Below, piece after piece: positions 13,343 through 15,178 of a DNA stretch of 23,152 nt. The notes under the pieces were generated by a model. It saw nothing but the letters and a program-made list of their open reading frames with translations, was not told the DNA's origin and ran no database searches. How positions within the stretch are numbered: the first letter of the stretch is position 1; every line of letters starts with the position of its first letter. A program made the translations under genes and the position numbers. The stretch is from a virus, in the IMG/VR virus record IMGVR_UViG_3300009481_000106, positions 1-23,152 of that record. The stretch is one strand, 5' to 3'.

Positions 13343-13464
13343 TGGTTAAGAGATTTGTTAAGACTGAAAAAGCGCTTGTAAAAAAAACAAAAAGAAGATA
13401 TCATCCTGTAGGTAAAAGACATAGGAAAAAGTTAGGTCCTAAGTCTTGTTTAAGAGTAAGATAA
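13342..13464 (+). CDS. Very basic 40-aa protein
   Basis: ATG 13342 overlaps the previous stop (TAATG) and opens 40 codons ending at TAA 13462-13464. About half the residues are Lys, Arg or His (for example K-K-T-K-R-R-Y-H-P-V-G-K-R-H-R-K-K), with a single Cys near the end. No family recognised. It is tightly coupled to the membrane gene before it and ends 11 nt before the methyltransferase start, so it is probably translated; nucleic-acid or membrane binding is plausible from charge alone. Confidence 0.55.
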   Translation: MVKRFVKTEKALVKKTKRRYHPVGKRHRKKLGPKSCLRVR

Positions 13465-13475
13465 GGGGATGGGTA

Positions 13476-14585
13476 GTGTTAAAAGTTTTAGATTTATTTT
13501 CAGGTATAGGTGGTTTTAGCCTAGGGTTAGAGTCAACAGGTTTTTTTGAAACAATAGCTTTTTGTGAAAAGGATGATTTTTGCAGACAAGTTTTAAAAAA
13601 GAATTGGCCTAATATTTCAATATATAATGATGTAAGGAGTTTACATGACACAAGAATACAAGCAGACGTCGTTTCTGGAGGCTTTCCCTGCCAAGCGTTT
13701 AGTCAAGCAGGATTACAAAAAGGCAGAAGTGACGACCGATGGCTCTGGAATGAAATGTTTGATGTTATTAAAAGAGTCAAACCAAGATGGGTTATTGGAG
13801 AAAATGTGCAAGGAATTATTAACATCGAAAACGGCATGGTACTCAGACAGGTGCAAGACGACTTGGAAGGTGAAGGTTTCAAAGTCCAATGTTTCGTTAT
13901 TCCAGCTTCAGGCATCGGTGCTTGGCATCAAAGAAAAAGAGTCTGGATCTTGGCTTCAAACTCCAACAACACAAGATGCAAGGATAGGACCGAACAATAT
14001 AGGAGGCAACCAGCACAGAGTCAAGAGAGGCTCAATAGCACTAGCAGACCAAATTTTATTTCCAACTCCAACAACTATGGATCACATAGATCGAAAGGGA
14101 ATGAGACCATCGAGAGCAGCGACCAACAGAAAGACAGGGTATTTGTCAGAGATGATAAAGATGTATCCGACACCAAGAGCAGCCGACGTGGAGGGAGGAG
14201 CAGTCAAGGATGTGAAAATAAAGAATGGTCATTTTTATCGAGAGAACAAGAAAGGCGAGAGATGGGGAGTGAAGTTGAGGGACGCAGTACAAACTTATCC
14301 AACTCCGAGGTCCAGGGATTACAAAGATTCAGTGATGTCAGTTCCTCCTTCAGTTCAGAAGGGGAGACAACCAACTTTAGGGGAGAAGATTGCGATAGAG
14401 AAAAAACAAATAGAGCCAGAGAAACTTGGTGGCAAACTCAATCCAGAGTTTGTGGAGTTCCTCATGGGGTATCCTATGGGGTGGACAAAGATAGAGCCAA
14501 GCGAATAAAAGCTTTAGGTAATTCTATTGTCCCACAAATTGTAAGGCAGATAGGGTTAGCAATTAAGGAAGCAGAAAATGAATGA
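13476..14585 (+). CDS. dcm: DNA cytosine-5 methyltransferase (369 aa)
   Basis: Transfers a methyl group from SAM to C5 of cytosine at a specific site. Motifs in order: I D-L-F-S-G-I-G-G (6-13), IV G-G-F-P-C-Q (68-73, catalytic C72), VI G-E-N-V (108-111), VIII H-Q-R-K-R-V-W-I (151-158), and IX/X K-A-L-G-N-S-I-V-P-Q-I (345-355). The target-recognition region (160-320) has repeated Asn-Ser steps (S-N-S-N-N at 161 and 196, V-S-D-T-K at 230, L-S-N-S-E at 274). Start chosen at GTG 13476, with AAGGGG 7 nt upstream; an upstream TTG has no site. No restriction endonuclease is seen nearby, so it probably acts alone to shield phage DNA. Most of the gene from 13645 is also open in the +1 frame (next entry). 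Confidence 0.93.
   Translation: MLKVLDLFSGIGGFSLGLESTGFFETIAFCEKDDFCRQVLKKNWPNISIYNDVRSLHDTRIQADVVSGGFPCQAFSQAGLQKGRSDDRWLWNEMFDVIKRVKPRWVIGENVQGIINIENGMVLRQVQDDLEGEGFKVQCFVIPASGIGAWHQRKRVWILASNSNNTRCKDRTEQYRRQPAQSQERLNSTSRPNFISNSNNYGSHRSKGNETIESSDQQKDRVFVRDDKDVSDTKSSRRGGRSSQGCENKEWSFLSREQERREMGSEVEGRSTNLSNSEVQGLQRFSDVSSSFSSEGETTNFRGEDCDREKTNRARETWWQTQSRVCGVPHGVSYGVDKDRAKRIKALGNSIVPQIVRQIGLAIKEAENE
13633..13639 (+). promoter_or_regulatory. Ribosome binding site inside dcm, for the nested gene
   Basis: TAAGGAG at 13633-13639, with a 5-nt spacer before ATG 13645. This near-perfect site falls within the dcm frame and is placed exactly for the nested +1 frame, strong evidence that the nested frame is translated. 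Confidence 0.8.
13645..14508 (+). CDS. Nested +1-frame gene within dcm, with PTP-repeat / GGxLNPxFVExLMGxPxGW domain (287 aa)
   Basis: A second complete frame lies wholly inside dcm, shifted by +1. It has its own TAAGGAG site and carries features I recognise from phage proteins usually found beside or within cytosine methyltransferases: K-T-T-W-K-V-K-V-S-K-S-N-V-S-L-F-Q-L (71-88), four 'PTP' steps (L-Q-T-P-T-T-Q-D at 104, F-P-T-P-T-T-M-D at 139, Y-P-T-P-R-A-A-D at 174, Y-P-T-P-R-S-R-D at 218), and the C-terminal L-G-G-K-L-N-P-E-F-V-E-F-L-M-G-Y-P-M-G-W-T (261-281). Each PTP step is the same DNA that gives the Asn-Ser step in dcm. The function is unknown; the protein may be a specificity or accessory partner of the methyltransferase. 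Not a sequencing frameshift: dcm keeps its own motifs to its C-terminus. Confidence 0.85.
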   Translation: MTQEYKQTSFLEAFPAKRLVKQDYKKAEVTTDGSGMKCLMLLKESNQDGLLEKMCKELLTSKTAWYSDRCKTTWKVKVSKSNVSLFQLQASVLGIKEKESGSWLQTPTTQDARIGPNNIGGNQHRVKRGSIALADQILFPTPTTMDHIDRKGMRPSRAATNRKTGYLSEMIKMYPTPRAADVEGGAVKDVKIKNGHFYRENKKGERWGVKLRDAVQTYPTPRSRDYKDSVMSVPPSVQKGRQPTLGEKIAIEKKQIEPEKLGGKLNPEFVEFLMGYPMGWTKIEPSE

Positions 14586-14802
14586 TATTGATACAATACA
14601 AGTTATACGTAAACACATAAAAAAAGAAATAGATAGTGTTAAAGAACATCTCTGTTATGGTATAGACAGCCAGGAACAATTGCTCTATGCTAGAGGTAAG
14701 CTCAACGCATTGGAAGCGTTGCTTCAGGATCTGAAAGACCTGCAAAATAGAGAGGAAGTATATGACGACTTTAATCAAGCCAAAACGTTATCAAAAAAAT
14801 GA
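14578..14802 (+). CDS. Small coiled-coil protein (74 aa)
   Basis: Predicted almost entirely helical: I-R-K-H-I-K-K-E-I-D-S-V-K-E-H-L, then Q-L-L-Y-A-R-G-K-L-N-A-L-E-A-L-L-Q-D-L-K-D-L. Many phages carry a short helical protein of this layout ('I-x-x-x-L-A-x-G-x-x-x-x-Y-x-x-x-x-G-x-L-x-G-L') near head or packaging genes, function unknown. The start overlaps the end of dcm by 8 nt, and its last 41 nt overlap the co-chaperonin gene, whose ribosome binding site lies inside it. Confidence 0.72.
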   Translation: MNDIDTIQVIRKHIKKEIDSVKEHLCYGIDSQEQLLYARGKLNALEALLQDLKDLQNREEVYDDFNQAKTLSKK

Positions 14803-15178
14803 CGTTCAAGTTCCGAAGGGACCAAAAGAAACTGAGGAATATCTAAAAATAATACCAAAACCAGTTGGATACAGACTTTTAGTAAGGCCTTATGAAGGTA
14901 AAGAAAAAACTGAAGGTGGTGTATATATATCTGATACAACAAGAGACAACATACAAATGACTACTGTAGTTGGTTTAGTTATTAAAATGGGTGATCTGTG
15001 TTACAAAGATAAAGATAAGTTTCCAACAGGACCTTGGTGTAAAGAGGGACAGTTTGTTGTCTATGGACGCTATTCTGGAGCTCGATTTAAAACTAAGTAC
15101 GGAGAGCATCGTATATTAAATGACGATGAAATCATCGGTACTATTGCTAAACCCGAGGACATCCTCGCATTATTCTAA
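14762..15178 (+). CDS. GroES-like co-chaperonin (Cpn10 family, 138 aa)
   Basis: Caps the host GroEL chamber while phage proteins fold, as T4 gp31 does for its capsid protein. The Cpn10 core spans about 32-130: P-V-G-Y-R-L-L-V-R-P (34-43), a mobile-loop segment E-K-T-E-G-G-V-Y-I-S (48-57) that matches the GroES contact pattern of Gly-Gly plus three hydrophobic residues, V-V-G-L-V-I-K-M-G (69-77), and a GroES-like C-terminal strand E-H-R-I-L-N-D-D-E-I-I-G-T-I (115-128). About 30 residues are added at the N-terminus, and there is an insert D-K-F-P-T-G-P-W-C-K. AGAGGA precedes the ATG. Directly upstream of scaffold and capsid genes, it very likely serves capsid folding. Confidence 0.88.
   Translation: MTTLIKPKRYQKNDVQVPKGPKETEEYLKIIPKPVGYRLLVRPYEGKEKTEGGVYISDTTRDNIQMTTVVGLVIKMGDLCYKDKDKFPTGPWCKEGQFVVYGRYSGARFKTKYGEHRILNDDEIIGTIAKPEDILALF

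Follow-up and report, generated by a model that had tools for sequence, protein, structure and literature searches.

A phage locus encoding a probable split C5-cytosine DNA methyltransferase in two overlapping reading frames

In the C5-cytosine (m5C) methyltransferase M.EcoHK31I, the gene of the large subunit also contains, in a different frame, the coding sequence of the small one; in the multispecific m5C methyltransferases of the Bacillus phages SPbeta and phi3T, several target-recognition modules are arranged in a row in a single chain and a single frame. The two polypeptides of M.EcoHK31I (YGGCCR) share out the conserved motifs, I–VIII and X being located on the large subunit and IX alone on the small one, and the target-recognition domain (TRD) has been assigned to the large subunit, not to the small one (PMC3404938). 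The alpha/beta m5C methyltransferase M.AquI (CYCGRG) is split after motif VIII, with part of the TRD and motif IX on the second chain (PMC3404938).

The locus analysed here lies in an IMG/VR virus record of 23,152 bases (the window, i.e., the whole stretch of DNA under investigation), where it is flanked by genes for terminase, portal, holin, GroES, and the major head protein. Its features are the following:

13446–14585, + strand: outer gene, C5-cytosine DNA methyltransferase with motifs I–VIII and X (PF00145, phrog_363, TIGR00675).
13491–13946, + strand: catalytic motifs I–VIII, outer frame (motif positions and M.HhaI alignment).
13633–13647, + strand: Shine–Dalgarno (SD) site TAAGGAG (13633–13639) and ATG of the nested gene (sequence and conserved placement).
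13645–14508, + strand: nested gene, +1 frame, 287 aa, proposed specificity subunit (phrog_1008 family).
13645–13956, + strand: constant N-part of the nested protein, residues 1–104, over outer motifs IV–VIII (alignments).
13957–14061, + strand: cassette 1 (QTPTTQDARIGPNNIGG...), nested frame; cluster 9, 8 proteins, positions 1 and 4.
14062–14166, + strand: cassette 2 (PTPTTMDHIDRKGMRPSRAATNRKTGYLSEMIKMY), nested frame; cluster 3, 19 proteins, positions 1, 2, and 4.
14167–14298, + strand: cassette 3 (PTPRAADVEGGAVKDVKIKNGHFYRENKKGERWGVKLRDAV...), nested frame; cluster 2, 19 proteins, positions 1–4.
14299–14433, + strand: cassette 4 (PTPRSRDYKDSVMSVPPSVQKGRQPTLGEKIA...), nested frame; cluster 7, 12 proteins, positions 2–4.
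13962–14435, + strand: outer frame across the cassettes, S/R/E/N-rich, probable read-through linker (composition, identity, and stop counts).
14434–14487, + strand: motif IX candidate KLNPEFVEFLMGYPMGWT, nested frame; near-invariant in the family (actinophage fusion comparison).
14511–14534, + strand: motif X ALGNSIVP, outer frame (motif position).

As judged from its description, M.EcoHK31I is the closest known enzyme to this locus, in which motifs I–VIII and X are likewise on the large chain and a candidate motif IX is on the small one. The first of two corrections to the original prediction is that the arrangement is not restricted to this phage and has a biochemical precedent in M.EcoHK31I (PMC3404938). 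The two differ in that M.EcoHK31I belongs to a bacterial restriction-modification system with a single site, whereas the family of the window locus sits in phages and prophages, and in that the TRD of the former belongs to the large subunit, whereas the variable region of the latter is a cassette array in the nested frame. Unlike M.AquI, whose small chain bears motif X and the distal TRD, the window locus keeps motif X on the large chain, with an overlap of 864 nt.

The outer open reading frame (ORF) comprises 379 aa when counted from TTG 13446, although GTG 13476, which is in frame and preceded by AAGGGG, is the likelier start. The protein matches PF00145 (2.5e-49), phrog_363 (1.3e-71), and TIGR00675 (9.9e-43), and its residues 9–171 align to residues 9–171 of M.HhaI. 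Motifs I, IV (PCQ), VI (ENV), and VIII occur in this order, with DLFSGIGG at 13491–13514, GFPCQ with the catalytic Cys at 13680–13694, GENV at 13797–13808, and QRKRVW at 13929–13946; the GNS/GNA signature of motif X is found as ALGNS at 14511. The claim that the methyltransferase frame keeps its catalytic motifs up to ALGNS is therefore confirmed from 13491 to 14511. A pattern scan of four double-coding loci did not detect the canonical motif IX (R-x-L-T-P-x-E...L-Q-G-F-P) in the outer frame, whereas in the methyltransferase frame of two canonical enzymes it was found, by pattern scan in Klebsiella phage P-KP2 and by eye, as RKLTPRECWRLQGFPDW, in Streptococcus phage IPP14. The stretch RVxGxP(H)GV near motif X in the outer frame of the window could be a degenerate motif IX.

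The coordinates predicted for a 287-aa ORF in the +1 frame, with its own SD site and ATG, hold, the stop codon being at 14506–14508. The nested protein is related to phrog_1008, annotated as "DNA methyltransferase" (residues 8–283 against profile positions 39–281, 1.6e-31), as are 12/12 of its relatives; the name suggests a whole methyltransferase, whereas the members examined correspond to the nested half and contain no catalytic motifs. A search for relatives gave 95 candidate IMG/VR stretches, 80 of which were kept, and the nested gene is also present in Klebsiella Soft, E. coli ZCEC5, a Leptospira plasmid, and a Paenibacillus polymyxa plasmid.

The N-part is common to the nested proteins, as is the C-terminal block (G)GxLNPxFVExLMGxPxxWT; between the two, a variable number of units (cassettes) of about 30–45 residues is embedded, each starting with PTPxxxD; the nested protein of the window has four. 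The 334 cassettes cut from 122 proteins fell into 91 groups, and the large groups recur in varied positions and combinations, so that similar backbones carry different sets, e.g., [9,2,0,7,8] in L010, [2,7,8] in L060, [2,8] in L062, and [2] in L026. The difference rates at nested codon positions 1/2/3 of the cassettes (0.243/0.201/0.505) follow the classic coding pattern. Repeated exchangeable cassettes are seen, which might correspond to the modules in a row of multispecific m5C methyltransferases; unlike those of the SPbeta and phi3T enzymes, the cassettes are widely shuffled and are encoded by the nested frame, not in the frame or chain of the catalytic core. This is the anatomy that would be expected of a modular target-recognition region, and the cassettes may accordingly serve in site recognition.

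The outer frame across the window's cassettes contains 27 Ser and 21 Arg among 158 residues; within cassettes, its identity is 0.39 against 0.28 expected, and it shows 3 stops against 739 expected. Over the variable region, it appears to be mostly an open linker, the conserved frame there being the nested one; this is the second correction to the original prediction. The original prediction had also described four places where the same bases give an Asn-Ser/Asp-Thr step in the outer protein and a PTP step in the nested one; the coincidence stands, nested TPT/PTP steps 105/140/175/219 falling on SNSNN/SNSNN/SDTKSS/LSNSEV (outer residues 171/206/241/284 counted from 13446), except that the first is QTP and not PTP. 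The outer residue numbers given previously are about 10 lower because another start was used.

The anticipated suppression of synonymous change in the overlap was also observed. The difference rates at outer codon positions 1/2/3, computed from 895 pairs that are not independent of each other, are 0.161/0.097/0.341 upstream of the overlap, 0.127/0.064/0.193 in its first 100 codons, 0.325/0.197/0.254 in its remainder, and 0.182/0.131/0.424 downstream; that is, third-position change passes from 0.34 to 0.19–0.25 and then to 0.42. It follows that the outer protein dominates over motifs IV–VIII, where synonymous change is reduced, and the nested protein over the variable region. Both frames are under selection, in different places.

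The function of the C-terminal block can be approached through the mycobacteriophages and other actinophages, where such cassettes and the block are found in one chain behind motif VIII and running into motif X (...PRLAAAFPEWMMGWPAGWVTEVPGISRNDQLRIIGNGVVPQQA...). In the split forms (Wile gp75/gp74, Streptomyces phage Samy 49/50, and the loci L200, L203, and L204), the catalytic frame terminates behind motif VIII, and cassettes, IX, and X follow in the +1 frame, which makes these forms look like M.AquI. The fused locus L187 and the split locus L203 are 99.5% identical across 598 bases of catalytic coding, and a 1-nt indel switches one form into the other; this could be a sequencing error in one of the two. 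Fused and split forms make up one clade (98/98) in a catalytic-part tree that was rooted by eye using the canonical rows; the clade lies inside the double-coding family and the canonical enzymes fall outside, which suggests that double coding came first in the family and that fused forms are derived. For the fused protein L185, the AF2 model (pTM 0.63; core mostly 80–92, C-terminal block ~61–82) aligns over residues 1–366 to M.HhaI 12–324 (Z 21.8, 205 residues, 2.4 Å); as such ranges mark no more than the two ends of the alignment, the IX block is taken to fit on account of its C-terminal placement. Sequence and model together suggest that the actinophage fusions put a nested-type module where TRD and motif IX belong. 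Against known m5C methyltransferases, the block matches in the right place but weakly (PF00145, E 0.055–0.2; DRM2, E 0.2–1.6), and the nested GYP is separated from the outer GN by a median of 16.7 codons in the family. On the basis of the fused relatives and of these weak profile matches, the nested C-terminal block is a candidate motif IX.

Taken together, two conserved frames, the coding of the variable region by the nested one, the cassette mosaic, and the natural occurrence of fused and split forms make it quite probable that the locus specifies a naturally split C5-cytosine DNA methyltransferase: the same DNA would encode its two subunits in two frames, and the nested subunit would recognise the targets. 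The outer protein would supply the catalytic core I–VIII (SAM binding, catalytic Cys, and ENV), an open low-complexity linker, and then motif X; the nested protein, translated from its own ribosome-binding site, would supply motif IX and a target-recognition region consisting of the conserved N-part followed by the array of exchangeable PTPxxxD cassettes. The two chains would assemble into a single enzyme with methylation activity, and the gain or loss of cassettes would change or add target sites, so that a phage might mark its own DNA against varied host restriction enzymes. Several points speak against this reading: the AF2 model of the nested protein alone (73 relatives) is of low confidence (pLDDT 58, pTM 0.28) and does not show a TRD fold, the C-terminal block gives weak matches to known m5C methyltransferases when these are taken singly, the outer frame has its own possible degenerate motif IX, the TRD of M.EcoHK31I is assigned to the large subunit, and the L187/L203 switch may be a sequencing error. 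The earlier suggestion of an enzyme and a specificity/accessory subunit evolving as a unit is supported, given that both frames are kept, synonymous change is suppressed, and fusions exist.

It is unlikely that the nested frame yields a genuine protein with another function (e.g., in regulation, anti-restriction, or DNA binding) which merely shares DNA with the methyltransferase. Such a function would agree with the fact that the nested protein alone belongs to no recognisable enzyme or DNA-binding family and has no solved relative: it matched no Pfam or NCBIfam family, and a PDB sequence search with the nested profile gave nothing meaningful. It would also agree with the nested ORFs of six loci (L019, L020, L023, L034, L061, and L071), which extend about 150 aa past the outer methyltransferase stop and thus code beyond the overlap, their tails consisting of one extra PTP-like unit and an HTH-like end (Homeodomain, E 0.011). 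However, actinophages fuse the same module to the catalytic core in a chain ending in IX and X, the nested C-terminal motif matches motif IX in place, and the scanned double-coding outer proteins have no canonical motif IX pattern of their own. Moreover, the nested gene was never found without the outer one among the genome loci examined. The family is carried by 13/369 genomes drawn from the class of an Acinetobacter locus, and the same overlap occurs in 16/16 loci examined from this class-level draw and from the search preceding it; in the first scan of genome contigs, no relatives of Samy gene 50 were found.

A decidedly improbable alternative is that one full-length enzyme is produced by ribosomal frameshifting, passing from outer I–VIII to the nested cassettes and IX and back to outer X. 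Fused one-frame versions do exist, and a single slip would yield a full enzyme in the split actinophage loci; the window and most relatives, however, would need two opposite slips, because motif X is in the outer frame. In addition, the SD site and ATG of the nested gene (AAGGAGtttacATG or GAGGAGGatataaaaATG), which are far upstream of any slip point, are conserved in position across nearly all loci that include an upstream region, and in most cases follow immediately on a stop in the nested frame. The nested N-part is itself under constraint: within subgroups its conservation exceeds what the outer protein would force (Z ~4–8, against a mean Z of 0.9 in canonical enzymes), although not between the two main subgroups, and this evidence is supportive rather than decisive because the +2 frame is also above zero there in the family.

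It is scarcely credible that the nested frame is untranslated and open through base composition or through methyltransferase motifs that forbid stops. Five canonical single-frame phage methyltransferases were used as controls (Streptococcus IPP14 and Javan25, Lactococcus D7138, Klebsiella P-KP2, and Vibrio 1.239.O), and in four of the five the +1 frame over the catalytic motifs is open for 86–168 codons, as this explanation would have it. Since conserved motifs force openness, the +1 frame of canonical m5C methyltransferases is often open over its first ~85–170 codons, and openness of this N-part alone proves little. In the same way, the nested-profile HMM matches the +1 frame of canonical enzymes (IPP14, 1.5e-15; D7138, 2.8e-13), i.e., similarity in the N-part can be forced by the outer protein; the E-values of the survey based on the outer N-terminus were therefore not used alone, and the case rests on the cassettes and the IX region. 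The decisive region is the overlap beyond the N-part, where canonical enzymes carry many stops, the +1 frame of the controls being broken by 11–28 of them. In the window, the third frame of the overlap contains 25 stops, and synonymous shuffling of the outer codons introduces a mean of 6.8 stops into the nested frame, which remained open in 0/500 shuffles. Over the loci derived from the nested protein, the outer synonymous shuffles predict 428 nested-frame stops, and 0 were seen. One zero-stop count built from open stretches was circular and was left out of the case. The conservation of the SD site points in the same direction, and an artefactual nested frame is rejected by the canonical controls and the codon-position rates.

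Double coding is also the rule across the loci surveyed. Wherever both proteins were detectable, both frames were open and in the same register, with the only exception of one actinophage; homologues with a broken nested frame were sought and not found, both frames being kept in every intact homologue. As the first loci had been found via the nested protein, the survey was repeated from the outer side, picking 80 loci solely by a 55-residue outer stretch upstream of the overlap. For the 70 complete viral genes among them, the median length of the longest run without a stop is 255 codons in the +1 frame and 45 in the other frame, and no true exception to double coding was found; the apparent exception L101 is due to a frame slip near the start, both coding parts still being there. 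Screening bacterial genomes with a profile built from distant relatives yielded a further 80 loci from many phyla, with the methyltransferase in the −1 frame relative to the nested gene in 80/80. Over their 15,371 codons, the third frame has 604 stops, against 7 in the nested frame (5 of which come from a single decayed locus) and 2 in the methyltransferase frame. The bacterial loci L247 and L278, whose nested frame is broken by several stops, are probably decaying prophage copies.

Finally, a methyltransferase frame dead past motif VIII, with the nested frame alone giving the C-terminal half, would suit Wile gp75/gp74, Samy 49/50, L200, L203, and L204, whose outer frame terminates behind VIII, leaving the C-terminal part and X to the +1 frame, but it is barely tenable elsewhere, where the outer frame stays open (949 stops expected in the reverse shuffle over the nested-derived loci, 0 seen) and ends in a conserved GNxxxP motif X.

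Beyond the window, it is on balance likely that a major family of phage m5C methyltransferases, spread over the phages and prophages of many bacterial phyla, is an obligate two-frame enzyme with its specificity in shuffled cassettes of the alternative frame. With these cassettes placed in the catalytic gene, the linker and the specificity protein would be forced to evolve together. If so, few long same-strand gene overlaps in double-stranded DNA phages would be as widespread or as old, and half of the enzyme would be absent from most annotations of this family; the "orphan" cytosine methyltransferases of phages, common in databases and usually annotated in one frame, would in many cases be incomplete. 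Such enzymes would look inactive when cloned from a recoded (codon-optimised) gene, because the nested frame is lost on recoding. Provided that specificity is set by the cassettes, how many there are and in what order they stand would represent a readable code for the anti-restriction range of a phage. In addition, the evolution of long overlapping genes can be studied in this family on a large natural data set, which includes switches by a single base between two-chain overlapping and one-chain fused forms.

The overlap has already been seen by annotators, since both frames are annotated as DNA-cytosine methyltransferase in Paenibacillus phage records. No paper interpreting it in phage methyltransferases was found in the open-access literature, in which the breadth of the family and the cassette array appear undescribed; the available passages of a P. 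larvae phage paper list two DNA-cytosine methyltransferases, and a comment on the overlap was not found in them. Another overlapping frame inside a phage methylase is known from the ShiLan-domain mycobacteriophage methylases, where, according to the passages available, the methylase gene contains a homing HNH endonuclease insertion that is read out of frame (PMC11855218); these methylases come from actinophages like those with the fusions, and the passages describe no nested specificity subunit. The HNH endonuclease gene gp5 annotated inside the DNA methylase gp4 of Gordonia phage Sitar (L317:1793–2260) is possibly an out-of-frame homing insertion of the ShiLan type (PMC11855218).

Some further observations concern single loci. 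In the marine phage L001 (KT997847), the outer gene is split by a frame slip, and the record annotates only the outer N-terminus and the nested frame, the latter as "putative cytosine-specific methyltransferase". In the window, a GroES-like co-chaperonin gene (phrog_3188, 5.8e-16) lies at 14762–15178, two genes downstream of the methyltransferase locus, and overlaps the preceding ORF (14578–14802) by about 41 nt. A methyltransferase of the family from a human-gut phage (L006:294–2369) harbours an intein-like insertion (Hint_2, 1.5e-6; Intein_splicing, 1.7e-5) whose end coincides with the catalytic Cys of motif IV (..VVHN|CQPFSVAG), the frame being interrupted between 767 and 804.
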